From Myxococcota bacterium (GTDB lineage: Bacteria; Myxococcota_A; UBA796; UBA9615; JAKLKC01): 64,000 nt of DNA. The stretch is from positions 1-64,000 of the forward strand of contig JAKLKC010000020.1 in NCBI GenBank assembly GCA_023150875.1, in the 5' to 3' direction. The notes below the pieces were generated by a model. That model saw nothing but the letters and a program-made list of their open reading frames with translations, was not told the origin of the DNA and did not search any database. Of this stretch, positions 2,012-39,546 are shown piece by piece. Each line of letters starts with the position of its first letter. Position 1 is the first letter of the stretch. A program made the translations under genes and the position numbers.

Positions 2012-3172
2012 TCAGGGGAGGTCCGGGCGCGTCGCCAGGAACTCCGCCACACCCATGACCTCCACCCCTTTGGCCAGGGGCCACCGGCCTTCGCCCGGGT
2101 GGACCACCCAGGCGGGCGGATCCCCCAGGTCCGCGCGCGCCTCGTGGAAGCCTCGGGTCGGGCGGGGGTCCGAGGCGTACTTCACCTCGATGACCGCTCG
2201 TGCGCGCACACCGTCGTGGATGACCAGGTCGACCTCGGCCCCTCCGTGGGTGCGATAGAACGCGACCTGCCCGGCTCGGTTCAAGGTGGAGCACACCTGC
2301 TCGACCACGTAGCCTTCGAAGGAGGCCCCGAGGATCGGATGGCCGTGGAGGGCGTCGGCGCTGGCGATCTGGAGCAGGGAGTGGAGGAGCCCCGAGTCGC
2401 GGTGATACACCTTAGCGGCCTTCACCAGCCGCTTCCCGCCGTTCACGTGGAAGGGGGGCAGGCAGCGCACCAGGAAGGCCCCCTCCAGGTAGTCCCGGTA
2501 CCGGGCCACGACCCTGCCCGACAGGCCCAGGCTGGCGCCCAGGTCCGACGCGTTCCACAACGCACCCTGGCGGTGCGCCAGCATGGTGAGGAAGCGGTGC
2601 AGGAGGAGGGGTGGGGACTCCAGTCCCATCAGCGGGAGGTCCCGCTCCACCAGGCTCCGCAGGAACGCTTCTCTCCACAGGGTCGAACCGGCTTCATCGG
2701 GAGCGAGGAGCGCATCGGGAAAGCCGCCACGGAACCAGTGGCTCTCCTGGTCCAGGCGATGGGCGACCTCCGGCCAGGTGAACGGGGTCAGTTCGTGGTA
2801 GATGATCCGCCCGGCGAGTGACTCCGCCGACCTCTGGAGCAGGGCGGGCGCAGCCGACCCCAGCAGGAGGTAGCGGCCGGGCCGCCGGTCCAGGTCTACC
2901 AGGGCACGCAAGACGGGGAACAGGTCGGGCGCCGCCTGCACCTCGTCCAACACCACCAGGCGGTCGGCGACCCGCGTCAGGTAGAGCTCCGGGTCCGCCA
3001 GCCGGGCGGCGTCGGAGGGCCGTTCCAGGTCCAGGTAGACCACGTCGGGCCGCCCCGCGACCAGGGCCCGGGCGAGGGTGGTCTTCCCGACCTGCCGCGG
3101 CCCCACCAGGGCGACGACGGGGAAGCGGCCGAGAAGATCGGCGACGACCGACTGGGCATGGCGGACGATCAT
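2012..3172 (-). CDS. AAA ATPase with DUF4143 C-terminal domain
   Basis: This 386-residue protein has an AAA_14-type ATPase followed by a DUF4143 domain. Walker A is GPRQVGKTT at residues 24-32 and Walker B is RLVVLDEVQ at 71-79. The C terminus carries a restriction-endonuclease-like segment with EVKYASD. Length and layout match this large, functionally unassigned family, which is often mobile and multicopy. The ATG at 3172 was preferred to an in-frame TTG at 3199 because the protein then begins with the typical short helix. The start codon lies inside a 19-bp imperfect inverted repeat (3169-3213), suggesting autoregulation. It is transcribed divergently from the TIR-NACHT gene. The cellular role is unknown. 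Confidence 0.85.
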   Translation of the reverse strand: MIVRHAQSVVADLLGRFPVVALVGPRQVGKTTLARALVAGRPDVVYLDLERPSDAARLADPELYLTRVADRLVVLDEVQAAPDLFPVLRALVDLDRRPGRYLLLGSAAPALLQRSAESLAGRIIYHELTPFTWPEVAHRLDQESHWFRGGFPDALLAPDEAGSTLWREAFLRSLVERDLPLMGLESPPLLLHRFLTMLAHRQGALWNASDLGASLGLSGRVVARYRDYLEGAFLVRCLPPFHVNGGKRLVKAAKVYHRDSGLLHSLLQIASADALHGHPILGASFEGYVVEQVCSTLNRAGQVAFYRTHGGAEVDLVIHDGVRARAVIEVKYASDPRPTRGFHEARADLGDPPAWVVHPGEGRWPLAKGVEVMGVAEFLATRPDLP

Positions 3173-3213
3173 CTTTGAAATCTTGCACTCAAGATGCAAA
3201 ATTTCAAGGATGA
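3169..3213. promoter_or_regulatory. 19-bp inverted repeat spanning the DUF4143 start codon
   Basis: The arms 3169-3187 and 3195-3213 match at 17 of 19 positions around a 7-nt loop. The core reads ATCTTTGAAATCTTGCA on the left arm. The ATG of the DUF4143 gene (3170-3172) is in the outer part of the left arm. The element is strikingly AT-rich against its surroundings. It could be an operator bound by a regulator or by the ATPase product, or a translation-blocking mRNA hairpin. Confidence 0.6.
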
Positions 3214-3467
3214 AGTAGCCCAGCGCTCCGCTCCCGGTCCCTACTCCCTCGACTCGCGACGTTCTCGATTCGGACCTGCGGGTCCTTCGATTCCATCACG
3301 GAATCTGCAACTATATGAATTCAAAGGGATATTTAGGCGGTGCCGACCTGCCTGGTCCGGCAGCGGCAGCCGGTGGTGCTGACCGGAACCCGCCCGACCG
3401 GCAGGGTGCCTGAACGCGCTCGCGCACCACCTGTGGTAGCGTCCGCTCTCTTCATGGGGGAAGCGCC

Positions 3468-6400
3468 GTGGACATCCGATCCAGCGACGTCTTCGTGGCC
3501 CACGCGAGGGCGGACAAGCAGCGGGCAAGGGAACTGACCGAGGCGTTGCGAAGGGCCGGCCTGGACCCGTACCTGGACGACGACGAGCTGCTCGGCGGTG
3601 ACGAGTGGGACCAGGTCCTGCCCGAGGCCCAGCGGCGTGCGCGGGCGACGGTGGTGCTGGTGGGGGCGACCATCGACCGGGCCTACTACCAGCGGGAGGA
3701 GGTGGCGACGGCCATCGCCCAAGCGCGGGTGGAGGGGGCGGTCCACCCGGTGATCCCGATCTACCTTCCGGGGCTGCCCGAGGACCGCGTGCCCTACGGC
3801 CTGCGGGTGAGACACGCCCTCCGGTGGGGCGACCTGGGGGTGGAGGGCGTGGCGGCCGAGGTGGCGCGGGCGGTGAGGGCCATCCCGCTGGCCCCACCAC
3901 CGCCCGGGGTCCACGACGGGGGAGATCCCGGCGCCCACGCCCACCTCCACGACGCTCTGCTCTCCTTCACCGACGAGGAGTGGATCTTCGTCCGCACCCA
4001 GCTTCGGCGGCACCGCTTCGAGTTGCCGGCCCACCGGGAGCCGCGCCGGAGGGAGGCGGAGGCGGTGGTGGCGCAGGCGGTGACCGGCGGCCGCACCCGG
4101 GAGCTACCCAAGCTCCTGGCGGATGCGCGGCGGGTGCTCTGCCGTCCCCGGGGAGACACGGCCGCCTGGATCCGCAACCTCCGGAAACGACTGGGGGAAA
4201 TCAGGGTACTGGGCCTCGTCCCCGGGGACCAGGACGTCGACCTGAACCTGGACGACGTTTACGTAGAGTTGGAGATCACCCCGCGGTCCCCCGGTGTGGA
4301 GCCGCCCTCGCCGGGGGGGCGCCACGGCCTGGTGGGGCCCCACGAGGGCAGGCAGGCGAACGCCCGCACCCTCTCCGAGGCCCTCGACGGTCTGCGGGGC
4401 GCCTGGGTCCGGCGGGGCGTCCGGGGGGTCCTGGTCCTGGGCCTGCCGGGGAGCGGCAAGTCCACCCTGCTCCAGCGGACCTGGTGCGAGGTCCACGACG
4501 CGACCCCCGCACCGAGTGGGAGCCCCCTCCGCGCCCCCGTCCTGGTGCGGTGCGCGACGGCCCAGGGCCTCGGGGTGGAGTCCCTGGGGCGGGGCGACCT
4601 GCGCGCCCTGCTGGAGATCGAGGCCACCGCCGCCGGCTACCCGGGGGCCGCCGGGGCGTGGCTGGACGCCGGAGGCCGGCCCGAGGCGGTCTTCCTGGAC
4701 GGGTTGGACGAGCTGCGGGACGCCGAGGACCGCCGCCTCTTCCTCGCATGGCTGGCGGAGGAGATGAAGGAGTGGAGGGGGATCCCCTTCGTGCTCACCA
4801 GCCGGCCGGCGGCCTGGTCCAGGGCCGAGGCCGAGGCCCTGGGGACGGCGTTCCACGCCTTCGACCTGCTGGCCCTCAGCCAGGCCTCGGTGGACGACTA
4901 CGTCGGCCGATGGTTCCGCCACGCGGCGGAGCGGGAGAAGGTGGGCTGCGACGACGACGAGCTGGCGACGGCCCTCTCTCTGGCGGACACGGAGGCCGCC
5001 GCCCTGCTTGACGAGCTGCACCGCCGCGACCCCACGGAGGCGGAGCGGATCCGGGGGCTGACCGGCAACCCCCTGACCCTCTCCACGGTCTGCCTCGTCC
5101 ACCGCCGCTTCAAGCTCCTCCCCAAGGGCCGGGGCCTCCTCTATCGCCAGTGCCTGGAGGTGCTGCTGCGGGGGCGGCGGGAGGGAGGCCGGCCCACTTT
5201 CGACCTGGACGAGGGGGTGCGCCTGCTGCGGGACCTCGCCTTCCGAATGCAGGAGTCCACCGACGACGCCTCTTCCCCCAAGGAGGTCCCGAAGGCCGAG
5301 CTGATCGCCCACCTGGAGGAGGCCCGGGAGGACATCGCCCGCCTCCAGGACCGCCCTCCCGGCGAGCTACTGGACGACCTGGCGAGAGGGTGCGGCGTCC
5401 TGGTGAGCCCCGACGGGGACCTCCACCAGTTCGTCCACCTGACCGTCCAGGAGTTCCTGGCCTACGAGGCCGTCCGGGCCCAGGGGAGAGGAGCCTGGCT
5501 GGCGGAGCGCGTGGCGGACCCCCGCTGGCGGGAGCCCATCCTGCTGGGGATGGCCGACTCCGCCACCCAGCGGGAGTTCCTGGGGGCCCTGCTGTCGGGC
5601 CCGCTGCCCACCCACGAGAAGCTCCTTCTCGCCTGCCGCTCCGAGAAGGACCTGGAGCGGGAGCCCTTCCGCGCCTTGCTCGACGCCTCCTCGGGGCGGG
5701 ACGCCGCGGACGTCGCCACGGTGCTCCGGGTCTTCGCCGACAAGCCGCCGCGATGGGTCATCGCCGCCGCCGAGGCCCTGTGCTCACACCCGGACGAGGA
5801 GGTCCAGCGCCTCGCCCACCCCCTCGCCGGCCGGGTGTGGGTGGACCCGCGCCGGCACCCGGACCGGGACGGACCCTTCGTGGGCTACGTCGACGACCCC
5901 CGGGGATTGGTCCAGAAGGGCGGGGAATTGGTGCCGGTGGACCTGGGCGTCGGCAGCCGCTGGAGGTCCGCTCCCCTGGACTTGGAGTGGGTGTGGGTGC
6001 CCCCGGGGGAGTTCCTCATGGGGGCGACGAAACGAGAGGGGGAGCCGGGCTTCGATCCCGAGGCGGATGACGATGAGGGCCCGCCCCACCGGGTGAGAGT
6101 AGAACGTGGCTTCTGGATGGGGCGCTTCCCGGTGACCAACGCCCAGTACCGCCGCTTCGTGGAGGGGGGGGGCGCGCAAGAACCCCAGTGCTTCCGCCGC
6201 CCGGGCTTCGACGCACCCGATCAGCCGGTCACCGGCGTGTCCTGGCAGGACGCCCTCACCTACACCCGGTGGGCGTCGGGGGTCGCCGGAGGCCCCGTGA
6301 CCCTCCCAACCGAGGCCCAGTGGGAGTACGCCGCCCGGGGGGCGGACGGGAGGCCCTACCCGTGGGGGCCCGAAGCCCCGGACATCGGGAGGGCCTGGTG

Positions 6401-6749
6401 CCGATTCCTGGCGGACGCCGGAGTCTCGGTGGATGGCCCCGCACCGGTGGGCGGCCGCCCGCACGGGGCGGGCCCCTTCGGCGCCGAGGAGCAGGCAGGC
6501 AACATGTGGGAGTGGTGCCTGGACCCGTATCGCCCATACGCGCCGGGCGCGACCGTCGATCCTGGGCCGGCGCCGCATTCCGCTGACACGGTTCGTCAGG
6601 AGGATGACACGCCCCGCGTGTTGCGCGGGGGCTCCTGGGGCTTCGGTCCCGGGGGGCTGCGGGCCGCCGTCCGGGGCGGGTACCATCCCAGGGTCCGGCT
6701 CGAGGTCATCGGCTTCCGGGTGGTGTGTCGTTCCCCCGAGCCGCGCTGA
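3468..6749 (+). CDS. TIR-NACHT-FGE/C-type-lectin conflict protein, DGR target 1
   Basis: The protein has 1093 residues. Residues 1-140 form a TIR domain; YYQREEVATA places a Glu at 77/78 where TIR NADases carry the catalytic Glu. A small helical linker domain follows at about 160-260. The NACHT-type STAND ATPase has Walker A GLPGSGKST (325-333) and Walker B VFLDGLDEL (about 408-416), followed by a helical region. From about 838 to the end lies an FGE-sulfatase/C-type-lectin domain whose last 44 residues are encoded by variable repeat 1. The paired Cys residues of true formylglycine-generating enzymes are absent near RGGSW, so the domain is probably a ligand sensor, not an enzyme. The inferred mechanism is ligand binding, NACHT oligomerisation, then TIR activation (NAD depletion or signalling). 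The gene stands alone, convergent with the reverse transcriptase, and ends at a hairpin terminator. Confidence 0.9.
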   Translation: MDIRSSDVFVAHARADKQRARELTEALRRAGLDPYLDDDELLGGDEWDQVLPEAQRRARATVVLVGATIDRAYYQREEVATAIAQARVEGAVHPVIPIYLPGLPEDRVPYGLRVRHALRWGDLGVEGVAAEVARAVRAIPLAPPPPGVHDGGDPGAHAHLHDALLSFTDEEWIFVRTQLRRHRFELPAHREPRRREAEAVVAQAVTGGRTRELPKLLADARRVLCRPRGDTAAWIRNLRKRLGEIRVLGLVPGDQDVDLNLDDVYVELEITPRSPGVEPPSPGGRHGLVGPHEGRQANARTLSEALDGLRGAWVRRGVRGVLVLGLPGSGKSTLLQRTWCEVHDATPAPSGSPLRAPVLVRCATAQGLGVESLGRGDLRALLEIEATAAGYPGAAGAWLDAGGRPEAVFLDGLDELRDAEDRRLFLAWLAEEMKEWRGIPFVLTSRPAAWSRAEAEALGTAFHAFDLLALSQASVDDYVGRWFRHAAEREKVGCDDDELATALSLADTEAAALLDELHRRDPTEAERIRGLTGNPLTLSTVCLVHRRFKLLPKGRGLLYRQCLEVLLRGRREGGRPTFDLDEGVRLLRDLAFRMQESTDDASSPKEVPKAELIAHLEEAREDIARLQDRPPGELLDDLARGCGVLVSPDGDLHQFVHLTVQEFLAYEAVRAQGRGAWLAERVADPRWREPILLGMADSATQREFLGALLSGPLPTHEKLLLACRSEKDLEREPFRALLDASSGRDAADVATVLRVFADKPPRWVIAAAEALCSHPDEEVQRLAHPLAGRVWVDPRRHPDRDGPFVGYVDDPRGLVQKGGELVPVDLGVGSRWRSAPLDLEWVWVPPGEFLMGATKREGEPGFDPEADDDEGPPHRVRVERGFWMGRFPVTNAQYRRFVEGGGAQEPQCFRRPGFDAPDQPVTGVSWQDALTYTRWASGVAGGPVTLPTEAQWEYAARGADGRPYPWGPEAPDIGRAWCRFLADAGVSVDGPAPVGGRPHGAGPFGAEEQAGNMWEWCLDPYRPYAPGATVDPGPAPHSADTVRQEDDTPRVLRGGSWGFGPGGLRAAVRGGYHPRVRLEVIGFRVVCRSPEPR
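6610..6739 (+). repeat. DGR variable repeat 1 (VR1)
   Basis: This 130-bp segment at the 3' end of the TIR-NACHT-FGE gene aligns without gaps to the template repeat at 7969-8098 (opposite strand). By eye it differs at 18 positions, and each corresponds to an adenine in the template. Examples are AAC to GGC, TTC, TAC, GTC or CTC, AGG to GGG, and GAC to GTC. Constant flanks surround the variable core. Immediately beyond, VR1 and VR2 read GAGCCGCGCTGA while the template reads GAACCCGCGCTG, as expected for IMH versus IMH*. Confidence 0.95.
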
Positions 6750-6791
6750 CCTTTGGCCTTCGACCTTTGGTCCTTGGTCCTCCGGTCCTCC

Positions 6792-6819
6792 CCGGCGCGA
6801 AGCGCCGGCGACTTTTTTT
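6792..6819 (+). terminator. Hairpin plus T-run after DGR target 1
   Basis: CCGGCGC (6792-6798) pairs with GCGCCGG (6802-6808) around a GAA loop; a run of seven T follows at 6813-6819. This is a canonical intrinsic terminator for the target gene. Its position, 52 bp past VR1, matches that of the hairpin beyond VR2, so it may also act as the DGR homing hairpin. Confidence 0.75.
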
Positions 6820-6858
6820 CGGCGTGCGCCCTCCTCGTCACCGGCATGACAGGTCCCG

Positions 6859-7845
6859 TCACCCTCCGAACACCCACGCCGCCGCGAACGACCGCACGAC
6901 CTGGCCCGCACGGGCGGGGTCGCGCAGCCTCCGCCGCAGGTGAGCGGGGAGCCGCCCCCGGGCCTTGGGCCCCAGCCACATCCGATGGGGAGTCACCCGG
7001 TAGCCCAGGTAGGACACCGCCCCGCGGGTGGAGATCGGCCGCGCCTCGGGGTCCTTCAGCTCCAGCCCCCTCTCCCTCTGGAGCCACTCCGCGACCTCGT
7101 CCCGCCAGCGCAGCAACTCCCCCGGGTCGTCGCCGAAGAGGTGCACGTCGTCCATGTACCGCTGGTAGGCGACCCGCAACTCCCGGCAGACGTGGTGGTC
7201 CAGCCCGTCGAGATACACGTTCGCCCACCACTGGCTGGTGAGGTTGCCGATGGGCAGCCCCCGCCCGGGCTCTCCCGGTCCGCTCCACCCGAGCCACGAC
7301 ACGACCTCGGGGCGCCGGTACAGCCCCGACCCGCTCTCCAGGATCCGGTCCACGAGCCGCCGGATCCCGGGCTCCGGCAGTCGCCGAGACAACAGGCCCC
7401 GGAGGCGTTCCCGGTCGATCCGGTAGAAGTAGCGGGCCATGTCCAGCCCGAGCACGTAACCGTATCGACGGCACCGGCGCCGGAAGGTCAGCAGGGCCCT
7501 GTGGGCGCCGCGCCCCTCGATGCAGGCGTAGCTGTGGGCAATGAACGAACGGTCCCACCACGGCGCGACCACGCGGTAGAGGGCCCGATGGACCACGCGG
7601 TCCCTCACGGGGGCCGCGGAGACGAGACGCCGCTTGGGGTCCCGGACCCGGAGCAGCCGGTAGCCGGCGGGCCGCCAGGTGCCCGCGTTCAGGGCGCCCG
7701 CCAGCGCCAGGACGTGCCGCTCGGCGTCGAGCCCGAACGCGGCGACATCCGGCCGCCGCCTCTTGCCGCGCTCGAACTCCCGCCACGCCGCCCACAGGTT
7801 CGACGGCGCCACGACCTGGTCGAAGCAGCGCAGGGTCCGCACCAC
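6859..7845 (-). CDS. DGR reverse transcriptase
   Basis: The 328-residue protein begins at GTG 7845. The catalytic box is YMDD (residues 230-233), with the third Asp in LGLDMARYF (Asp135). The motif [10 protein letters not shown] (196-205) is the hallmark of DGR reverse transcriptases, which replace the usual QG..SP with IG..SQ; this separates it from group II intron and retron enzymes. It should copy the template-repeat RNA into adenine-mutagenised cDNA that replaces VR sequence. It lies directly downstream of the template repeat on the same strand, in the order HTH protein, avd, TR, RT. Length is usual for the family and no maturase or endonuclease domain is seen. Confidence 0.95.
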
Positions 7846-7968
7846 GTCAGGCCCAAGGGGCCCGCCCCGGCTTTCGCCTCGGGGCTACCGGCGGGGGCGG
7901 GCGTGGGGGGCCTTGGGCCCCGGGAGCGTCGCCTGCTCGCGCTCGGACCCCAGCGGGACAGCGCGGGT

Positions 7969-8098
7969 TCGGGGGAACGACACACCACCCGGAAGCCGAT
8001 GTTCTCGTTCCGGTTCCTGGGATGGTTCCTGTTCCGGTCGGCGGCCCGCAGCCTCCTGGGATCGTTGTTCCAGGAGCCCCCGCGCAACACGCGGGGCG
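7969..8098 (-). repeat. DGR template repeat (TR)
   Basis: This 130-bp non-coding segment lies between avd and the reverse transcriptase. Read on the minus strand it would encode the lectin tail with seven AAC codons clustered in the core ([12 protein letters not shown]). AAC is the usual DGR template codon because adenine mutagenesis reaches many residues but no stop. It matches VR1 and VR2 except at adenines. It has no start, and its frame lacks the rest of the target gene, so it is the template, not a gene fragment. Confidence 0.95.
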
Positions 8099-8118
8099 GC
8101 CGCTCTCCGGCGACGCGG

Positions 8119-8448
8119 TCACAGGTTACCGCCGTCGAGGTGGCGACGCCAGCCGCCGATCTGCCTGCCGATCCGGTCCAGCATCGCCGCGGCATGCAGC
8201 AGTCCCGCCTCGACCAGCAGGTCCAGCTCGAACGCCAGCCGCAGGAGGGCCCGCAGTCGGGCCGCGGCACGGTCGGCCAGGTCCACTTCCACCTCCCGGT
8301 CCAGCCCGTGGAGGGCCAGGGTGACGTGCTCCACCAGGTCCAGGGCGGCGTGGTGGACGCGTCGCCCCACTGGGGCATCGGCGCGGAGGTTGGCGCAGAT
8401 CCAGCGCGCGAGCTGGATCGCGTCGTTGTAGAGCGGCGCCTCCTTCAC
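8119..8448 (-). CDS. avd: Accessory variability determinant Avd
   Basis: This 109-residue helical protein starts at GTG 8448, which overlaps the stop of the upstream HTH gene as GTGA, implying coupled translation. The C-terminal pattern [14 protein letters not shown] followed by [11 protein letters not shown] matches Avd of the 23S-rRNA-intervening-protein-like four-helix-bundle family. Avd forms a positively charged pentamer that binds the reverse transcriptase and TR RNA and is needed for homing. Its place just upstream of the TR is canonical. Confidence 0.88.
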
Positions 8449-8999
8449 CGCGGGCTCCGGGACTCGGAGCGGCGCACCAGGCCGCCAAGGGCGGGGAGCA
8501 CCCGGGCCTCGATCTGGCCGGCAAGGGCGAGGGACTCGGGGTCCGAGACCATGTGCAGCCAGGCGATCGCCTCCGCGGCGTGGACCCGGGCCGCGTCGTA
8601 GGCGTCGGCTTTGGCCCGGGCCCGAAACGCATGGGCTCCCCGGGCGGCGGCGAGGTTGCAGGAGGCGAGGCACGGGAGCGCCGGGTGATCCGCGGGGAGC
8701 TGCTCCCGCGCCGCGCGCCAGATCGCGACCCCGTCCACGAAGGCCCGGATCGTCGTGACCGAGTAGCGTGCGCCGGGCTCGACGTGGGGTGCCAGGGCCT
8801 CGGCCACCTCCTGCTGGAGCGCGGCGACCTTCTCGGCGCGGCGGCGGGCGTCGGCGGGGGTGGCCGGGAGGTCCGACTCGTCCACGAGCCAGACGCCGCC
8901 CACCTTGCGCGCGGGAAGCTCCCCCTTCTTCAGGGCGTAGCGCACCTGGCGGACGGACTGGCCCAACCGGGTGGCGACGTCGGCGAGGGTCAGGAGCAT
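8445..8999 (-). CDS. HTH protein with possible Avd-like helical domain
   Basis: The 184-residue protein opens with an excisionase/MerR-type winged helix (LADVATRLGQSVRQVRYALK, then a GVWLVDESDL wing, residues about 3-46). A charged linker follows, then an all-helical domain (about 75-180) with NLAAARGAHAFRARAKADAY and QIEARVLPALGGLVRR. These resemble the four-helix-bundle (S23/Avd) pattern, though weakly. Being translationally coupled to avd, it is likely a DGR regulator or a second nucleic-acid-binding accessory. The HTH call is firm; the second domain is inference. Confidence 0.65.
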   Translation of the reverse strand: MLLTLADVATRLGQSVRQVRYALKKGELPARKVGGVWLVDESDLPATPADARRRAEKVAALQQEVAEALAPHVEPGARYSVTTIRAFVDGVAIWRAAREQLPADHPALPCLASCNLAAARGAHAFRARAKADAYDAARVHAAEAIAWLHMVSDPESLALAGQIEARVLPALGGLVRRSESRSPR

Positions 9000-9091
9000 G
9001 GGGCCTCGGGAGGATGGGGAGACCGGTGTACCGAGGATGGGAGAGGCGTGACGGCCGTGTCAAGAGCCTGACAAGGGGATTCGCTCGCGAT

Positions 9092-9110
9092 CGCGGCGCT
9101 GCGCGCCGCG
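9092..9110 (-). promoter_or_regulatory. Hairpin 51 bp beyond VR2, likely DGR cis element
   Basis: Perfect 8-bp arms CGCGGCGC / GCGCCGCG surround a 3-nt loop. The flank between VR2 and this hairpin is similar in sequence to the flank between VR1 and its hairpin at 6792. No T-run follows on the minus strand, so it is a weaker terminator candidate but a good match to the cruciforms needed downstream of DGR variable repeats. Confidence 0.6.
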
Positions 9111-9151
9111 AGGAACGCGAAGAGCAAGGACCGAGGGTCGAAGGTCGAGGG

Positions 9152-12100
9152 TCAGCGCGGCTCGGGGGAACGACACACCACCCGGAAGCCGATGCCCCCG
9201 TTCCGGTACCTGGGATGGTTCCAGTTCCGGACGGCGGCCCGCAGCCACCTGGGACCGTTGCCCCAGGAGCCCCCGCGCAACACGCGGGGCGTGTCATCCA
9301 TCCGACGCTCCTTGTCACCCCGCGACACGCCGTGTTCCCTAGCCGCGCTGCCATGCCTCGCCTGCCGCGGCCCGGCACCGCCCCGTAAGTCGACGACCCC
9401 CGCGGGGACTTCTTCCCGCTCGATGACCAGATCGGCCTCCTTCCCTCCTTCCATCCACGCCGTCGCGCACCACTCCCACACGTTGCCCGCGAGGTCCCAC
9501 AGTCCCTCGGGCGAGTGTCCGGCGGGGAAGGCCCCCACCGGCGCTCCCCGCCGCCCCAGGAACGGGTCGCCACCCCAGTCGTGAGCGGCCCGGGCGCCGT
9601 CCCCCTCCCCCGGGGTTGGGTCGCCCTCCCACGGGTAGGGACGCCCCGTGCCCCGACGGGCGATCGCCTCCCACTCCCGAGACGTCGGCAGGTCGAGGGG
9701 GCCGAGGGCTGGCAGCCCCCACCGCTCCGTCGCCCAGCGGCAGAAGGCCCGAGCCTCCCACCACGAGACTCCGATGACGGGCTGGTTGGGACGCCGGACC
9801 TGTTGGTGCCAAGCGGGGGGCACGCTTCCCACCGGGCCCGCCCGTCCCTCCACCCACCACCGGGGATCGGAGGAGTCATCGTCGTCCACGAAAGCGCGAT
9901 ACTCCGCCACCGTCACCGGCCACACCCGGACCCAGAGATCGGGCGTTCGGGCGCGACCCCTCGGGAGCGCCTGGTACTCCCCCCCGTCTCCCCCCACCGC
10001 GTACTCCCCCCCCGGCACCCTCACCCACCCCGTCTCGGGGCCGAACTCCCTGACCCCCCTCGGGTCCGGCAGCCGCGGATCCCCGAGCCGCCCCAGGGCC
10101 TCCAGCGCGTCCAGGCGGTCCTCCCAGGGCCAGGAGCCCCCCCGCACCTTGAACCGGTCCGCGATCTCCCGCCGCAGCTCCTCCCGCACCGGCTGGGTGC
10201 GGAAGTGGCGGGCCTCGTACTCCGCCACGCCCCCCGCCGCCAGGGCCAGCAGGCGCGCCTCCATGGGATCGCCGGGAAGGGCCCCCGCGAGCCACTGCTT
10301 GACGCAGGCCACCGCGTGCTCGCCGTCCACGTGGCCGAAGGCCCCCACCAGGAAGCGCAGGCAGCCGGTCCAGGAGGGATCGGCGAGCCGGGAACCCCGC
10401 TCCCCCCGGCCGTCCGACAGCCACTCCAGGCACTCCTCCTGGCGGTTCACGTACTCGGCGGCGATGGAGCGGGCCGCCAGGTACTCCTGGAAACTCCGGT
10501 GCCAGGGCCGGACCACCCGGGCACTCCCCGTCCCCTCGAAGCGCAGCAGGCCGGTCCGGGCCGCCAGGCGGTCCACCTCGTCCTCCCCCTCCCGGGCCCC
10601 CTTGGCCTTCCCGGCGGCGTGGAGGGCGCGGCCCGCCTCGGCGAGGGCCAGGCGGGTGCCCCCCTCCTCCTGCATGGCCCGGAACACCGCCTGTAGGGAC
10701 TCCCTCAGGCTCCCCGCCCCCGCCTTCTTCTCGTCCTCGGTCCCCGCGTCCACCCGGCGCTCGCACAGGAGCCGGGTCATCTCGTAGTACAGCTCCGCCC
10801 GGTCGTCGGGCAGGCGGCGGTGGTCCAGGTAGACCAGCAACATGCAGGTCAGCAGCAGGGGGTTCTCCGCCGGGGAGCGGTTCTCGGCGTCGGTGGGGAA
10901 GTCCGCCTGGGTCGCCCGAACGGCCGCCAGGGGGGGGCCGGCCTCCTCGCCGGGGGCGTACACCCCCAGCCACACCGTCACCAGGCGCTCGATCCGCCCG
11001 TCGTCCAGGGGCGCGATGTCGGCGCGGACGAAGCCCTCCGGCAGGTCGACGTCGGTGTGGGCCGCCGGCCGGGTGGTCAGCACGACCCTCACGCCCAGCG
11101 CCCCCAGGGCTCCCAGGGCCGTCACCACCGCCTGCCTCCCCTTGGCGTCGGGCACCTCGTCCAGGGAGTCCACCAGCAGCAGGTAACGCCCCCTGGCCAG
11201 GCCCTGGCGCACCGCCTCGGGGTCGGCGCGGTCCCCGAAGGTGTCGGGGGAGCACAGCAGGGCCACCAGGGACTCCCCCACCGCCCGCCCGGGACCCCCG
11301 CCCGCCGTACACAGGTGCTGGGCCAGGGTGCGCGCGGAGTGAAGGACCGGCACGGGGAGGACGGGGCTCCGGCCCCGGAGGGCCGCCAGGTCCAGGTGGT
11401 GCTCCTCCTCCCCCTCCCCCCGCTCCGCCGCCGGCTGGCCCAGGGCGTGGCGGGCCAGCACCCAGGCGACGTGCTGGAGCAGCACGCTCTTCCCCGCCCC
11501 GGCGCTCCCCACTACGGCGACCCGGGGGTGGTCGGGCAGCGAGAGCACCGCGTCCATCCAGGCGGGGCGGGACTCCTCCTTTCCCCCCGCTTCGGCAGGG
11601 CGCTGACCGAAATTCTCCCGCTCCCCCCGCACCGGCCTCCCCTTCACCTCGCGCCAGGGCGCGTCGGCATGAAGGTTCACGAACCACCTCGCGCGGTCGG
11701 ACTTCTTCCCCAGCAGGGTGGCGAGCCCTCCCGCGTCCCCGCAGCGCCACTCCCCCGCCTTGTGCTCCAACCACTCCTTCTCCCACGTCTCCAGGACCCG
11801 GGAGGCGCCGGGATCGGGGGGGAAGGCGCGGCGGTGCCAGTCGAGGACGCCCGACACGGCCGAGTCCGGGACCTCGGCCGGGTTGCCCAGCCGCGGCGTC
11901 ACCCCCACGAGCCTCTTCCGGATCCGCCGGACCTCCGACTCCTCCCCCTCCCACTCAGTGGGGACCTCGTCCGGGAAGTAGGGCACCACCACCACCACCG
12001 TCCGTGCCCCCCGCGGGTCAAGGGCGTCCCCGACCAGGTCCCCCAGCACCCCCAGCCCTCCCCCGTGCCTCGCCCCCAGCAGCACGACCCGCAGGTCCAA

Positions 12101-12760
12101 CTCCGCCAGCCGATCCGCCGCCCCCTCGTCCCCGGGGTCGATCCGCGCCACCCGGTCCCGCACCACCTGGGACAGGGCCCCGAGCCCGGCGATCACCCGG
12201 TCGGCCACCTCGCCCAGCTCCGCCCGCACCGCCACCACCCCGATCCGGACCTTCTGCTCCCCCCAGAGGCGTAGGCCGATCCTCCCCCCGATCCGGTGCA
12301 GCTCCCGGACCACCTCCCCCGCCCCCGCCTCCCGGCCTGCCGCCGGGTCCGGGGCCGTGAGGGCATGCAGGATGTTCAAGTGCGCGTAGTTCCTCAGGTT
12401 CAGGTCCACCGTCCCGCGGCACACCGGCACCACCCGGGCGGCGGGGTTGCGCTTGCGCTGCTCCAGGGCCGCGAGGGCACCGGAGCGCCCGTCGGCCTCC
12501 ATCGCCTCCCGGGTCACCACCACCAGGCAGCCCGCCCTCTCCAGCGCCGACTGCTCCTCAGCCGCGGGATCTCCCCCCGCCAGGACGTCGCCCCGGTGGA
12601 AGGCCTCCCACCTCTTCCCGGCCAGCCCCTCGGCCAACGCCCTTACGAAGTCCCCGTCCCCCTCGCCCCCCAGGATGCAGAAGTGCACGGCCGTGGCCCT
12701 CCGGCCCGCATCCTGCCAGAAGCGGGCGGCCGGAGCCAGGGTGGGGGCCGGGTTTGACAC
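9152..12760 (-). CDS. TIR-like-NACHT-FGE/C-type-lectin conflict protein, DGR target 2
   Basis: The 1202-residue protein is read from GTG 12760, preceded by a GGGAGGGGGAG ribosome-binding site; longer starts would run into the divergent regulator's leader. Residues about 20-130 are a divergent TIR-like alpha/beta domain. A second alpha/beta domain (about 165-330) vaguely recalls DUF4062. The NACHT ATPase has Walker A GSAGAGKS (about 416-423) and Walker B LLLVDSLDEVPD (about 525). A helical region follows, then an FGE/C-type-lectin domain from about 905 to the end, closing with VR2. It shares its end sequence with target 1 but little elsewhere, apart from domain order. It heads the minus-strand set target 2, HTH protein, avd, TR, RT. 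Confidence 0.87.
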   Translation of the reverse strand: MSNPAPTLAPAARFWQDAGRRATAVHFCILGGEGDGDFVRALAEGLAGKRWEAFHRGDVLAGGDPAAEEQSALERAGCLVVVTREAMEADGRSGALAALEQRKRNPAARVVPVCRGTVDLNLRNYAHLNILHALTAPDPAAGREAGAGEVVRELHRIGGRIGLRLWGEQKVRIGVVAVRAELGEVADRVIAGLGALSQVVRDRVARIDPGDEGAADRLAELDLRVVLLGARHGGGLGVLGDLVGDALDPRGARTVVVVVPYFPDEVPTEWEGEESEVRRIRKRLVGVTPRLGNPAEVPDSAVSGVLDWHRRAFPPDPGASRVLETWEKEWLEHKAGEWRCGDAGGLATLLGKKSDRARWFVNLHADAPWREVKGRPVRGERENFGQRPAEAGGKEESRPAWMDAVLSLPDHPRVAVVGSAGAGKSVLLQHVAWVLARHALGQPAAERGEGEEEHHLDLAALRGRSPVLPVPVLHSARTLAQHLCTAGGGPGRAVGESLVALLCSPDTFGDRADPEAVRQGLARGRYLLLVDSLDEVPDAKGRQAVVTALGALGALGVRVVLTTRPAAHTDVDLPEGFVRADIAPLDDGRIERLVTVWLGVYAPGEEAGPPLAAVRATQADFPTDAENRSPAENPLLLTCMLLVYLDHRRLPDDRAELYYEMTRLLCERRVDAGTEDEKKAGAGSLRESLQAVFRAMQEEGGTRLALAEAGRALHAAGKAKGAREGEDEVDRLAARTGLLRFEGTGSARVVRPWHRSFQEYLAARSIAAEYVNRQEECLEWLSDGRGERGSRLADPSWTGCLRFLVGAFGHVDGEHAVACVKQWLAGALPGDPMEARLLALAAGGVAEYEARHFRTQPVREELRREIADRFKVRGGSWPWEDRLDALEALGRLGDPRLPDPRGVREFGPETGWVRVPGGEYAVGGDGGEYQALPRGRARTPDLWVRVWPVTVAEYRAFVDDDDSSDPRWWVEGRAGPVGSVPPAWHQQVRRPNQPVIGVSWWEARAFCRWATERWGLPALGPLDLPTSREWEAIARRGTGRPYPWEGDPTPGEGDGARAAHDWGGDPFLGRRGAPVGAFPAGHSPEGLWDLAGNVWEWCATAWMEGGKEADLVIEREEVPAGVVDLRGGAGPRQARHGSAAREHGVSRGDKERRMDDTPRVLRGGSWGNGPRWLRAAVRNWNHPRYRNGGIGFRVVCRSPEPR
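9162..9291 (-). repeat. DGR variable repeat 2 (VR2)
   Basis: This 130-bp segment ends the second target gene. It aligns ungapped with the TR and differs at 10 positions, each at a TR adenine: AAC to GGC twice and TAC once, AGG to TGG twice, GAC to GTC, GAT to GGT, GAG to GGG. Several template AAC codons are unchanged, so its history is independent of VR1. Confidence 0.95.
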
Positions 12761-12872
12761 CCCCCGCTCCCCCTCCCTACACTCGGTCCACCGCGACCCG
12801 GGGCTCCGGGTCCGCTCGCCCGTCCCGGGGGGGCGACGCGCCGCGCGGGCTCCGGGGAGGGCCCTTCCCGAC

Positions 12873-13493
12873 ATGCCGAGCACGCCTCGCAGCCGCCGCG
12901 ACCCGGCCCCGCTGGAGGAGGCGGAGCGCACCGTCACCGAGGCCCTGGGGCAGCTCATGGAGTTCTGGGGGTTCCGCCCGGCCCTGGGGCGCCTGTGGGC
13001 CCTGCTCTACCTGAGCCCCGATCCCCTGACGGCCCAGCGCCTCGGGGAGCGGCTGAAGATGAGCTCCGGGGCGGTGAGCATGGGCCTCCAGGACCTCCAG
13101 CGGTGGGGGGTGATCCGGAAGGTGTGGGTGGAGGGGGAGCGGCGGGACCACTACACCGCCGAGGAGGACGTGTGGAAGATGGTCTCCCGGGTGCTCCGGG
13201 AGCGGGAGTGGCGCGAGATCGACGCCGCCCACGCCGCCTTCGCCCAGGCCACCTCCCGCCTGGACGACGTCCCCCCCGAAGGGGCGGGCCCGGCGGTCGC
13301 CTTCCGCCGCGAGCGCATCGGCGAGCTGGAGGAGCTGGCCCTGGCGGGCAAGGACCTCCTGGGGATGCTCCTTTCCAACGAGTCCCTGGACCAGGCCCTG
13401 GCCCACGAGCAGGCGGCCCGCGGCGGGGATCCCGCTCCGGCGACCGCGGCGGCCCCGAGGGCGGTGGACCTGCCGGACTTCCAGGATCCCTAG
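12873..13493 (+). CDS. GbsR/MarR-family transcriptional regulator
   Basis: The 206-residue protein has a winged-helix domain at about 20-115. The recognition part LKMSSGAVSMGLQDLQRWGV is followed by RKVWVEGERRDHY, typical of GbsR-type MarR relatives, then a helical C-terminal dimerisation region. The ATG at 12873 gives the expected family length. It diverges from DGR target 2 with about 110 bp between starts, so it may control that gene, or simply itself. No effector can be named. Confidence 0.8.
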   Translation: MPSTPRSRRDPAPLEEAERTVTEALGQLMEFWGFRPALGRLWALLYLSPDPLTAQRLGERLKMSSGAVSMGLQDLQRWGVIRKVWVEGERRDHYTAEEDVWKMVSRVLREREWREIDAAHAAFAQATSRLDDVPPEGAGPAVAFRRERIGELEELALAGKDLLGMLLSNESLDQALAHEQAARGGDPAPATAAAPRAVDLPDFQDP

Positions 13494-13559
13494 ATCCGCC
13501 GCCGCGAGAGCGGAAGTGCCCGACGCCTTGACCCAGGAACCAAGCATGCCGATCCGTTC

Positions 13560-13701
13560 GCCGCCCAAAGCTCCGGGCCTCCCCGCGCTTCCCTCCGTGT
13601 TCTCTGTGGGTCCCGGACGGGCCGCTCTGTGCCTCCGTGGGCGAGCCCAGGACGGCGAGCCATTTACGCCGGCCGGCAGTCGCCACGAACCGCCCTGGGT
13701 G
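13560..13701 (+). repeat. 142-bp dispersed intergenic repeat, copy A
   Basis: This segment is about 84% identical by eye to 39370-39510 read in reverse complement. It contains the phrases TGTTCTCTGTGGG and CTCTGTGCCTCCGTGG. It fills the gap between the GbsR-like gene and chrA. Confidence 0.8.
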
Positions 13702-13715
13702 ACTACCGGATAGGC

Positions 13716-14891
13716 ATGGTACCAAGCAACCGACCGGCCCCCTCCGGCGCCGGGGAGGGCTCCCTCGCCGAGCTGGCGTGGCTGTTCCTGCGCCTCGGCA
13801 CCACCGCGTTCGGCGGGCCGGCGGCCCACGTCGCCCTGTTGGAGGACGAGGTCGTCCGGCGGCGGGGGTGGCTCACCCGGGAGGAGTTCCTGGATCTGCT
13901 GGGGGCGACGAACCTGATCCCCGGACCCAACTCGACGGAGATGGCGATCCACGTCGGGAGGGTCCGGGCGGGCACGGCGGGCCTCGTCGTCGCCGGCGCC
14001 TGCTTCATCCTGCCCGCGGCGCTGATGGTGACCGCCATCGCCTGGGCCTACGTGGAGTGGAGCCGGCTGCCGGAGCTGTCCGCCTTCCTGTACGGCGTGA
14101 AGCCGGTGATCGTCGGCGTGGTGGTGCAAGCCCTGGTGGGGTTCTCGCGCACCGCCATCAAGACGCCGCTCCTCGCGGGGATCGCCGCGGCGTCGGTGGC
14201 CCTGGTGCTATACGGCTGGAACGAGATCGCGGTGCTCGCCGCCGCCGGGGCCACCGTGCTCGCCGCCCGCTCCGCACCCTCCGGCGGGCGGGGATCCCCC
14301 CTGGGGACGGCGATATGGGGCGGGCTCGCCGCGCCCTGGCCGGCGCTGATCGTCGCCGCGGGGGAGGCTCCGTTCAGCCTCGCCCGCCTCTTCCTCTTCT
14401 TCCTGAAGGTCGGCTCGGTGCTGTTCGGCTCCGGCTACGTCCTGCTGGCCTTCCTGCGGGCGGACCTGGTGGAGCGCTGGGGGTGGCTGACGGAGGCCCA
14501 GCTCCTGGACGCCGTCGCCGTGGGACAGTTCACCCCCGGGCCGGTGTTCACCACGGCGACCTTCATCGGCTACCTGCTCGGCGGCGTGCCGGGGGCGGTG
14601 GTCGCCACCCTCGGGATCTTCCTGCCGGCCTTCGTCTTCGTCGCCGTGAGCGCCCCCTGGCTGCCTCGCCTGCGCGCCTCCCGCCGGGCCCGGGCCTTCC
14701 TGGACGGGGTGATCGTCGCCTCGCTGGCGCTGATGGCGGTGGTGACCTGGCGGCTCGGCCTGGACGCGGTAGTGGACCTGCCCACCGCGGCCCTGGCGGC
14801 GATCTCCGCCGTGCTCCTCGTCCGCTTCCGGGTGAACTCCGCCTGGCTGGTCCTGGGCGGCGGGCTGGCGGGCCTCGCCCTGGGCGGGTGA
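13716..14891 (+). CDS. chrA: Chromate ion transporter ChrA (long form)
   Basis: This 391-residue polytopic inner-membrane protein has two homologous CHR domains (about 18-185 and 215-385). The first holds FGGPAAHVALLEDEVVRRR and NLIPGPNST, diagnostic of ChrA; the second repeats the pattern with FGSGYVLLAFL and QFTPGPVFTTATF. The family exports chromate by proton-driven antiport, though many members serve unknown anions. The start at ATG 13716 excludes an upstream extension that lies in a dispersed repeat. Confidence 0.9.
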   Translation: MVPSNRPAPSGAGEGSLAELAWLFLRLGTTAFGGPAAHVALLEDEVVRRRGWLTREEFLDLLGATNLIPGPNSTEMAIHVGRVRAGTAGLVVAGACFILPAALMVTAIAWAYVEWSRLPELSAFLYGVKPVIVGVVVQALVGFSRTAIKTPLLAGIAAASVALVLYGWNEIAVLAAAGATVLAARSAPSGGRGSPLGTAIWGGLAAPWPALIVAAGEAPFSLARLFLFFLKVGSVLFGSGYVLLAFLRADLVERWGWLTEAQLLDAVAVGQFTPGPVFTTATFIGYLLGGVPGAVVATLGIFLPAFVFVAVSAPWLPRLRASRRARAFLDGVIVASLALMAVVTWRLGLDAVVDLPTAALAAISAVLLVRFRVNSAWLVLGGGLAGLALGG

Positions 14892-25608: not shown

Positions 25609-28890
<3,282 letters not shown>

Positions 28891-29005
28891 CACCCGGCAC
28901 GATGTCCCGTGGCGTCCCGCGCCCCGCCGGTTCCGCGGCGACCCACCTCCCCGGGTCCCGAGCGGCACCCGTGGGGACGCGTGAGCCTCGCTCGCGAATG
29001 ACGGC

Positions 29006-29035
29006 TTGATCCTCCGCCATGGAGGATGCTACACA
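29006..29035 (+). promoter_or_regulatory. Candidate sigma-70-type promoter with overlapping hairpin
   Basis: TTGATC (29006) and TACACA (29030) are 18 bp apart, with an extended -10 TGC. A perfect 7-bp inverted repeat ATCCTCC / GGAGGAT (29009-29027) fills the spacer and could be an operator. It lies 123 bp upstream of the FG-GAP gene at 29158. Confidence 0.4.
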
Positions 29036-29157
29036 AGGATCGCCCGGACGGATGGCCGCCGTGGCGCCTGGGGGACGGCGGGTCCGTGGGGGCTGCCCTG
29101 CCGTCGCCCGAGACGTGCCCGGGGCGGGTGGGGTCCGTCCGGGCCCAGGAGGCCAGA

Positions 29158-31257
29158 GTGGAGACGCGAGCAACGAGACGTACCCATCCCGCGCGTGCGC
29201 TGGTGGTCGCGGGGGTCGGGCTCGCCGTGGGATGTGTCACCGCGGACGTTCCTGGGGCTGCCTGGGAGACGCTTGGTGTACAGGCGGATCCCGCCGCCGC
29301 CCCCCTGGGCGAGGCGGCCGCGTGGACCGCGGAGGCCGATCAGGTCTCGGCGTACTTCGGTTACTCCCTGGCGGGCGCGGGGGACGTGGACGGCGACGGG
29401 TACGTCGATCTGGTCGTGGGGGCGTACAAGTACGACGGCGGCGCCACGGACGAGGGGATGGCGTTCCTCTTCCGCGGGGGACCGGACGGCCCCGCGCCAG
29501 CGCCCTCCTGGACGGCGGGCTCGGGCCAGAGCTACGCGGGGGCGGGGTACTCCGTGGCCGCCGCCGGGGACGTGAACGGGGACGGATTCGACGACGTGGT
29601 GGTGGGCACCCTCCAGTACGACGGCGGCAACACTAACGAGGGGCGTGCCGAGCTCTACCTGGGCTCCGCCGCCGGCCTCTCGGCGGCCCCGGCTTGGACC
29701 GCGGAGGGGGACCAGACGAGCGCCGCGTTCGGAGCGGACGTGGCGGGGGCGGGGGACGTGAACGGGGATGGGTACGACGACGTGGCCGTCGGCGCGTGGG
29801 GGTACGACGGCGGCGAGACCGACGAGGGACGGGCGTTCCTGTTCCTCGGCGCCGCCAGCGGTCTGTCGGAGAGCGCCGCCTGGACGGCGGAGTCGGACCA
29901 GGCGTCCGCCTACTTCGGCGCCGCGGTGGCGGGAGCGGGGGACGTGAACGGGGACGGGTATGCCGACGTGGTCGTCGGCGCATACTCCTGGGACGGCGAC
30001 CTGGGGGGCGAGGGGCGCGCGTACCTCTACCTGGGCTCGGCGGCCGGCCTGGAGGGGGCGCCCGCGTGGACCGCCACATCGGACCAAGCGTGGGCCCGCT
30101 TCGGCTACGCGGTGGCCGGGGCGGGGGACGTGAACGGGGACGGGTACGACGACGTGGTGGTGGGCGCGCCCAACGATGACGATGGCGTGTACGGCGAAGG
30201 CCGCGTGTACCTCTACCTGGGCTCGGCGAGTGGCCTCGGGGGAGCGCCCGCATGGGCCGCGGCGTCGGGGGAGTACGCGGCCTGGCTCGGGAAGGACGTG
30301 GCGGGAGCGGGCGACGTGAACGGCGACGGCTACGGGGACGTGCTGGCCGGCGCCTATGGGTACGACGGCGCGGAGACCGATCAGGGGCGGGCATACCTGT
30401 ACCTGGGCTCGGCGGGCGGCCTGGGGGCGGCGCCGGCGTGGACGATGGACGGGGACCAGGCCCAGGGATACTTCGGGTTCTCGGTGGCTGGCGCAGGCGA
30501 CGTGAACGCCGACGGCTTCGCGGACGTCGCGGTGGGCGCCTACGGGTATGACGCCGGAGAGTCGAACGAAGGGCGAGCCTACGCGTACCTCGGCGCGGAC
30601 GACGGCGGGGGCGCGGCGGACTGCTCCGCGAGCGCGCTGGGCCCCGCCGAGGGGGCCGACCTGACGGAGGGCGCGACGTTCATCTGGTCGGGGGACTGCG
30701 CGGGCTACAGGGTCGAGGTCAGCGCGGATCCGGGTTTCCCGGCGAACGCGTCGTACCTGTTCGGGAGCTTCGCGGATGCCGCCGGGGACAACGCCTTCGC
30801 CCCCAGCGCGACCATCTGGTCGGCTATCGGCGCGAGGTTCACCGAGGCGGGCTACTGGCGGGTGGTCGGGGGGCTGGACGGGGCCAAGCGGGAGTTCGAT
30901 GCCCGCTCGTTCCACACGGAGCTTCCGGCGGCGCCACCGGCTCCGGCTCCGGTCGAGGGATGCACGGTGGAGCTGGACAGCCCGGCGGAGGGGGGAGTGC
31001 TCGGGTCCCCGCCGACGTTCACCTGGACGACGGACTGCACGGGGGCGTACCTCGAGCTCTCCACGGACCCCGGGTTCGCGGTGGAGGCGACGTACAGCTT
31101 CGGATCGGTGTCATGGGGCAGGTATGGGGTGAGCGAGACGGTGTGGGGCTCCCTGGACGGGCGTTTCGCGATGGCGGGGATCGGCTACTGGCGCGTGATC
31201 GCGGGAGCGGCGGAAGGTCCGGTGGCCTCGGATGCGCGCACCTTCACCGTGCCGTGA
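29158..31257 (+). CDS. FG-GAP/integrin-like propeller lipoprotein with tandem C-terminal modules
   Basis: The 699-residue protein is read from GTG 29158, five bases after AGGAGG. A lipoprotein signal ends at LAVGC (Cys26). Seven highly regular FG-GAP blades follow (each GAGDVNGDGYDDVVVGAY-like with EGRAYLYLGSA), then two copies of an about 110-residue beta-sandwich module (CSASALGPAEGADL and CTVELDSPAEGGVL). The blades at DNA level are near-tandem repeats of about 190 bp. Expected role: calcium-dependent extracellular binding or adhesion. A hairpin overlaps the stop codon (31249-31264) but lacks a T-run. Confidence 0.87.
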   Translation: METRATRRTHPARALVVAGVGLAVGCVTADVPGAAWETLGVQADPAAAPLGEAAAWTAEADQVSAYFGYSLAGAGDVDGDGYVDLVVGAYKYDGGATDEGMAFLFRGGPDGPAPAPSWTAGSGQSYAGAGYSVAAAGDVNGDGFDDVVVGTLQYDGGNTNEGRAELYLGSAAGLSAAPAWTAEGDQTSAAFGADVAGAGDVNGDGYDDVAVGAWGYDGGETDEGRAFLFLGAASGLSESAAWTAESDQASAYFGAAVAGAGDVNGDGYADVVVGAYSWDGDLGGEGRAYLYLGSAAGLEGAPAWTATSDQAWARFGYAVAGAGDVNGDGYDDVVVGAPNDDDGVYGEGRVYLYLGSASGLGGAPAWAAASGEYAAWLGKDVAGAGDVNGDGYGDVLAGAYGYDGAETDQGRAYLYLGSAGGLGAAPAWTMDGDQAQGYFGFSVAGAGDVNADGFADVAVGAYGYDAGESNEGRAYAYLGADDGGGAADCSASALGPAEGADLTEGATFIWSGDCAGYRVEVSADPGFPANASYLFGSFADAAGDNAFAPSATIWSAIGARFTEAGYWRVVGGLDGAKREFDARSFHTELPAAPPAPAPVEGCTVELDSPAEGGVLGSPPTFTWTTDCTGAYLELSTDPGFAVEATYSFGSVSWGRYGVSETVWGSLDGRFAMAGIGYWRVIAGAAEGPVASDARTFTVP

Positions 31258-39334: not shown

Positions 39335-39369
39335 ATTTCAGGTGGGTGGTTTCGGGCCAGGCCGGACAC

Positions 39370-39510
39370 CACCCAGGGCGGTTCGTGATGACTGCCAGCG
39401 GTCGTAGATGGCTCGCCGTCCTTGGCTCGCCCGCAGAGGCGCAGAGTGGCCCGTCCAGGGCCGCAGAGAACGCAGAGGAAAGAGCGGGGAGGCCCGGACG
39501 TTCGGGCGGC
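39370..39510 (-). repeat. 142-bp dispersed intergenic repeat, copy B
   Basis: The reverse complement matches 13560-13701 at about 84% by eye. It is inserted between cpaF and tadB of cluster 1; the equivalent gap in cluster 2 is only 39 bp and lacks it. Confidence 0.8.
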
Positions 39511-39546
39511 AAACGGATGTTCGATGATGGTTTGAGGGGAGGAGTG

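Follow-up and report, generated by a model that had tools for sequence, protein, structure and literature searches.

A diversity-generating retroelement with two NACHT-containing target genes and an associated helix-turn-helix gene in a genome of Myxococcota

Two stretches of 130 nucleotides that differ from one another only where one of them has an adenine raise the question of whether the surrounding DNA encodes a mechanism that rewrites selected codons and, if so, what the rewritten proteins might do. The pair is located in contig JAKLKC010000020.1 of a Myxococcota bacterium (assembly GCA_023150875.1), the first 64,000 nucleotides of which, hereafter the window, were analyzed. The initial annotation had interpreted the two stretches as the template repeat (TR) and a variable repeat (VR1) of a diversity-generating retroelement (DGR). 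The ungapped alignment of VR1 with the reverse-complemented TR region bears out the pattern on which that interpretation was built: 18 of the 130 positions differ, each opposite a template adenine, the products include G, T and C (10 A>G, 7 A>T, 1 A>C), and not a single mismatch falls opposite a template C, G or T, the kind of substitution that had been named as contrary to the interpretation. With the base composition of TR (24 A, 17 T, 45 G and 44 C), the chance that 18 random mismatches all coincide with template adenines is 2.6e-17 (hypergeometric). The AAC triplets of the template, nearly all of which had been described as changed in VR1, are in fact altered without exception (7/7), and the description of this target as heavily diversified is apt for VR1, with 18 of the 24 template adenines changed and 12 residues altered. 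The ungapped repeat extends to 133 bp (6610-6742 and 7966-8098), with one extra mismatch of a template A to a G in the VR at the base immediately beyond the 130 bp. The interval originally reported for the pair, 6610-8098, also includes the gene for a reverse transcriptase (RT), which is located between VR1 and TR.

A second variable repeat, VR2, which the initial annotation of the pair did not mention, shows the same pattern at a lower level of diversification. All of its 10 differences from TR are opposite template adenines (6 G and 4 T; p 7.4e-09), so that 10 of the 24 adenines are changed and 8 residues altered, and TR, VR1 and VR2 are the same at all 106 non-A positions. Used as the query over the whole genome, TR retrieved itself, VR1 and VR2 and, in addition, the template of another DGR, located on contig C124 (81%), as well as a gene for an FGE domain on contig C152 (70%). 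The latter gene (G000:C152, 70% to TR over 114 bases) was considered as a third target and rejected because only 13 of the 33 counted substitutions are at A.

In the reading frame of the targets, 12 of the template adenines are at the first codon position, 12 at the second and 0 at the third. No stop codon is reachable through changes of template adenines, and up to 16 codons can vary at the predicted tip of the FGE domain while the frame and the third positions stay fixed; the number of possible protein variants is about 1.4e13. The codon changes in VR1 and VR2 are all non-synonymous. Within the repeat, the third codon positions of VR1 and VR2 agree in 42 of 42 cases, compared to 101 of 189 in the remaining aligned part of the FGE domain, where 88 of the 189 residues of the two targets are identical; at a rate of 0.53, complete agreement over 42 positions has, by our own arithmetic, a chance of the order of 1e-12. 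This difference points to copying from a template as opposed to ordinary divergence, given that overwriting from one template spares the silent sites whereas diversifying selection would leave them unprotected, and the third-position identity thus provides independent support for mutagenic retrohoming.

The features of the locus are collected in Table 1. On the minus strand, the order is target 2, the helix-turn-helix (HTH) gene, the Avd-like gene, TR and the RT gene; target 1, on the plus strand, faces the RT gene, with VR1 just beyond the end of the latter. The closest solved structure to the RT is 8ub7_A, which we take to be the RT of the Bordetella phage BPP-1 DGR; the translation contains the motifs IGNLTSQ and YMDD, and 123 nt separate the gene from TR. 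The Avd-like protein matches two Avd profiles below their cut-offs (for bAvd, 31.8 bits against 40) and is 51% identical to the Avd protein of the second DGR of this genome, which itself passes the Pfam cut-off by 0.5 (40.5 against 40 bits). Its GTG start codon was assigned by analogy with that second locus (denoted L003), and the gene overlaps the end of the HTH gene. None of the reading frames in question, those of the RT, Avd-like and HTH genes and of the two targets, is interrupted in the window. We regard it as almost certain that the locus is a complete DGR consisting of an RT, an Avd-like protein, TR and two targets, with the addition of the HTH gene; the A-to-N pattern and its repetition in VR2, together with intact reading frames for the RT and the Avd-like protein next to TR, support the earlier claim of a DGR fingerprint left by past retrohoming.

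Table 1. Coordinates of the components of the DGR locus in the window
Feature	Position	Strand	Evidence or remark
Target 1, TIR-NACHT-FGE/C-type-lectin, 1093 aa, VR1 C-terminal	3468..6749	+	domain matches
VR1	6610..6739	+	3' end of target 1; mismatched with TR at 18/130 positions, each a template A
Short perfect hairpin followed by seven T, after target 1	6792..6819	+	by eye
DGR-type RT, 328 aa	6859..7845	-	Pfam RVT_1 5.7e-12; 8ub7_A 5.6e-35
TR, template repeat	7969..8098	- (coding sense)	ungapped similarity to VR1 on to 7966
Avd-like accessory protein	8119..8448	-	bAvd 2.2e-07, NCBIfam DivGenRetAVD 1.9e-08, both below cut-off
HTH_17 (excisionase-like) DNA-binding protein, C-terminal region conserved, 184 aa	8445..8999	-	HTH_17 1.5e-09
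Target 2, (TIR-like)-NACHT-FGE/C-type-lectin, at most 1268 aa (start codon uncertain), VR2 C-terminal	9152..12958	-	domain matches
VR2	9162..9291	-	3' end of target 2; mismatched with TR at 10/130 positions, each a template A; found with TR as query

Related loci in other genomes display the same adenine bias. When genome contigs were scanned with the RT, five loci (L029-L033) with 31-52% identity were recovered, and TR/VR pairs were identified in 8 of the 11 loci that were scanned first (L003, L029-L033, L039 and L040; none in L037, L041 and L042) and later in L061, L062 and L067. In the 12 TR/VR pairs from the 11 loci comprising L003 and relatives, template adenines account for 177 of the 191 differences (80 A>T, 75 A>G, 22 A>C), a proportion that is somewhat favored by the procedure, in that the first repeat scan kept pairs with at least 60% of the differences at one base and, from the unfiltered second scan, pairs including a likely template were picked; a short inverted pair in L029 (5/5 at A over 58 bases) was excluded from this count. 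With regard to the products, A>G and A>T are roughly equal in these 12 pairs, and A>C is rare both there (22/177) and in the window (1/28). Locus L029 repeats the layout of the window, with an upstream SIR2-NACHT-FGE target, the HTH gene, an Avd-like gene, TR, RT and a facing SIR2-NACHT-FGE target; in the facing target, the in-register similarity of the VR is limited to the first 58 bases and the frame appears to be shifted. At E<=1e-40, the RT is found in 7 of the 71 genomes of the class. The present genome is one of these, and the other 6 of its order gave no match, so the distribution of the element is patchy. No relative was detected among the viral contigs scanned with the RT.

Some of the relatives are incomplete. 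Loci L059, L060 and L063 contain two facing FGE targets, a shared VR-like block and an HTH gene, and the search for an RT in the sequence covered (a 10.5 kb whole contig, 15 of 33.9 kb and 18 of 62 kb, respectively) gave no match; these would be DGR loci that are target-only or decayed, possibly served in trans. Two further relatives, G019 and G008, have a partial RT match, with two TAG inside that of G008.

Such degenerate loci, along with the fact that the species is represented by a single assembly, lend some credence to a scenario in which retrohoming produced the pattern in the past and has stopped since. We consider an element that has fallen silent rather unlikely, given that all the genes and target frames of the locus are open and that the non-A positions of TR, VR1 and VR2 are uniformly identical in spite of the divergence of the neighboring domain, which implies that copying was recent relative to that divergence. 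If the FGE domain had been duplicated and positive selection had then acted on the residues in contact with the ligand, in the absence of templated mutagenesis, this would account for the clear paralogy of the two domains (88/189 residues identical outside the repeat) and for the non-synonymous nature of the codon changes. Such a history is highly improbable: it would not confine changes to template adenines (p about 3e-17), nor would it preserve every third position within the repeat when 88 of 189 are different elsewhere in the domain, and genes for an RT and an Avd-like protein adjoin the template; chance or selection alone was accordingly rejected as the cause of the adenine pattern on the grounds of the confinement to A and the third-position identity.

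With a real DGR as the preferred reading, we turn to the proteins that it appears to diversify. Target 1 contains a TIR_2 domain (3.3e-15), a NACHT domain (6.6e-09) and an FGE-sulfatase domain (3.6e-47; residues 840-1086 of 1093). Target 2 contains NACHT (1e-07) and FGE-sulfatase (4.3e-42; residues 975-1261 of 1268) domains, and its N-terminal region matches TIR_2 below the cut-off (4.7e-04); the possibility that this TIR-like region has lost the catalytic Glu was dropped because the alignment was too poor. The FGE domain of target 1 matches many entries with the FGE fold and, more weakly, 2y3c, Treponema denticola variable protein 1 (E 2.7e-06). In both targets, the VR is thus located at the C-terminus of a protein with a predicted C-type lectin fold. 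The structure model of the FGE domain has low confidence (mean pLDDT 50.9, with the VR region below 50) and was not used for fold searches. No defence-system model in PADLOC covers the full targets, the matches being to short TIR or NTPase stretches alone.

The second DGR in the same genome, L003 on contig C124, has the gene order target-HTH-Avd-TR-RT, as in the window, and its target has the architecture EAD1-NACHT-FGE. Between its TR and VR, 16 of 152 positions differ; 14 of these are at template A, and the remaining two, positions 7 and 127, fall beyond the part in which the A changes lie. A gene for an EAD1-TIR_2 protein is located near the target and adjoins an AbiEi/AbiEii pair. By analogy with the adaptor model described in sections of Dore et al. 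2024 (PMC10907252), one and the same genome would apparently combine a TIR domain fused to the sensor, in the window, with a TIR domain recruited through EAD1-EAD1 contact, at L003. A segment of 94 bases after the VR of the L003 target recurs at 97% identity beside the EAD1-TIR gene (L003:2168-2261 and 5409-5502), which suggests past shuffling of that locus.

Taken at face value, this organization suggests how the element might work, from transcription, cDNA synthesis and homing to ligand binding and defence. A transcript of the TR region (8098-7969, minus strand) would be copied by the RT together with the Avd-like protein into cDNA, with random bases incorporated opposite template adenines, and the mutated cDNA would replace VR1 and VR2 in the respective targets. 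DGR RTs are promiscuous when copying template adenines (PMC8144416). The targets resemble NLR immune receptors in their build: an N-terminal TIR effector, clear in target 1 but weak in the other, precedes the NACHT NTPase as the switch and the hypervariable C-terminal sensor. Most probably, a phage or another foreign ligand bound at the variable tip would trigger oligomerization of NACHT and a TIR-driven response, through NAD+ depletion or signal production, that would stop or kill the infected cell. We find it likely that this chromosomal DGR diversifies NLR-like sensors and that their role is in defence.

FGE/C-lectin targets of DGRs are found in many settings, and the DGR could, while real, serve kin recognition, surface sensing or regulation. 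According to Dore et al. 2024 (PMC10907252), STAND proteins with the order effector-NTPase-sensor defend against phages, and the C-lectin domains attached to STAND proteins had not yet been characterized experimentally, so that the defence role remains a proposal and a function outside defence gains some ground. However, the effectors, namely TIR, EAD1 with a neighboring EAD1-TIR protein, or SIR2, belong to the usual toolbox of abortive defence, and the AbiEi/AbiEii pair adjoins the second locus; a non-defence role accordingly appears doubtful to us. The locus is a clean and complete case of a bacterial NLR-like receptor pair with one common hypermutation template, and the fused TIR and the EAD1 domain with an EAD1-TIR neighbor, both in this genome, and the SIR2 domain of a relative represent swapping of effectors on the same kind of variable sensor.

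The least familiar feature of the locus is the HTH gene. The proteins from the window, L003, L029 and L039 align along their length, with 28-40% identity to that of the window, and a profile built from these four sequences produced 12 matches in 10 of the 377 genomes of the phylum; with the single protein of the window as the query at E<=1e-10, only this genome was retrieved among the 71 of the class. All 9 strong profile matches (E<=1.9e-31) have a gene for an FGE target close by and 6 of the 9 have a DGR RT, 3 of the 9 being members of the profile, with an FGE neighbor for all of the other 6 and an RT for 3 of them; the 3 weak matches have neither nearby. Conversely, of the 13 loci fetched with the RT (the window, L003, L029-L033, L037, L039-L042 and L067), 5 contain the HTH gene, some of the others being cut by contig ends. 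The association of the HTH gene with the sensors is at least as close as that with the RT. The protein probably regulates the cassette or the targets. A bolder and distinctly tentative proposal is that it is a dedicated third accessory factor of an NLR-type DGR lineage, inherited together with the two sensors even at loci that lack the RT, that switches on diversification or sensor expression, for example, during infection; were this the case, hypermutation of an immune receptor would be inducible. The facing targets and the conserved HTH gene offer a testable handle on the regulation of diversification. In the article text consulted, no HTH gene was described as a conserved component of NACHT-type DGRs, and we make no claim of absence.

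Comparison with known systems places the locus among DGRs with immune-receptor-like targets. The DGR of Bordetella phage BPP-1 reportedly has the organization mtd/avd/TR/RT, with TR beside RT and a tail fibre protein as the target; the present locus shares with it the TR next to the RT, A-to-N mutagenesis and a target with a (here predicted) C-type lectin fold, has an Avd-like protein, but is cellular and has two immune-receptor-like targets and the extra HTH gene. The TvpA DGR of Treponema denticola likewise has its VR on an FGE-type C-lectin fold (2y3c), but TvpA, said to be a surface lipoprotein, has no NACHT or TIR domain, unlike the targets in the window. The locus also resembles the clade 5D DGRs, which, according to Dore et al. 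2024 (PMC10907252), commonly have two targets with single C-lectin domains, central STAND NTPases and, in some cases, TIR. Both the published systems and the present one combine two targets, each with one C-terminal C-lectin/FGE domain, central NACHT, some TIR effectors, several DGRs per genome, variable positions 1 and 2 of codons and no reachable stops; in contrast to clade 5D as presented there, target 2 and the Avd-like gene are separated here by an HTH gene, and the main text of that article mentions an HTH gene only for DGR 8 and the closest relative, T. drewsii, in clade 5A. Judged from its predicted target layout and gene content, the locus fits as a new example of this STAND/NACHT kind of DGR. 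The VMAP ternary conflict systems, as outlined by Kaur et al. 2020 (PMC7159879), similarly involve a DGR-diversified FGE domain in a conflict system, but here NACHT would be the switch, and no MoxR, vWA or VMAP component was found among the nine proteins of the window that were scanned. TIR, NACHT, SIR2, FGE, helix-turn-helix and NLR are not mentioned in PMC10053308, and a literature search joining diversity-generating retroelement with Myxococcota found no paper.

Some non-coding elements surround the genes. The BPP-1 DGR is said to have a conserved DNA hairpin after the VR. A short perfect hairpin follows both VR1 and VR2 in the window, but the folding is weak (z -2.07 and -0.58, and -0.28 at the second locus) and there is a T-run, so we make no claim of an equivalent element. 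The hairpin and T-run after target 1 are probably the transcription terminator of that gene, a weak assignment, as the hairpin was not chosen as the minimum-energy one by DNA folding. The spacer motif downstream of VR1 has no second copy in the genome. As an RNA, the stretch from TR to RT folds with z -1.71, from which no claim is drawn, and Rfam at the gathering threshold gave no match in 3000-13500. The stretches 13552-13733 and 39338-39518, each of about 180 bases, are imperfect copies of one another in inverted orientation (78-84% complementary) and may represent a dispersed intergenic repeat.

Elsewhere in the window, two neighboring, related gene clusters are found at approximately 33869-55300, about 11 kb apart, with 10 families of 300-base segments at 69-84% identity and a spacing of 10.8-11.0 kb; the 10 frames scanned there include secretin, T2SSE ATPase, T2SSF and Tad domains, and the region is apparently a tandemly duplicated Tad/Flp pilus cluster. 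Positions 25729-30618 contain repeat arrays, with spacings of 186 and 342 bases, that code for Asp-rich modules resembling, by eye, FG-GAP/MopE-type repeats.
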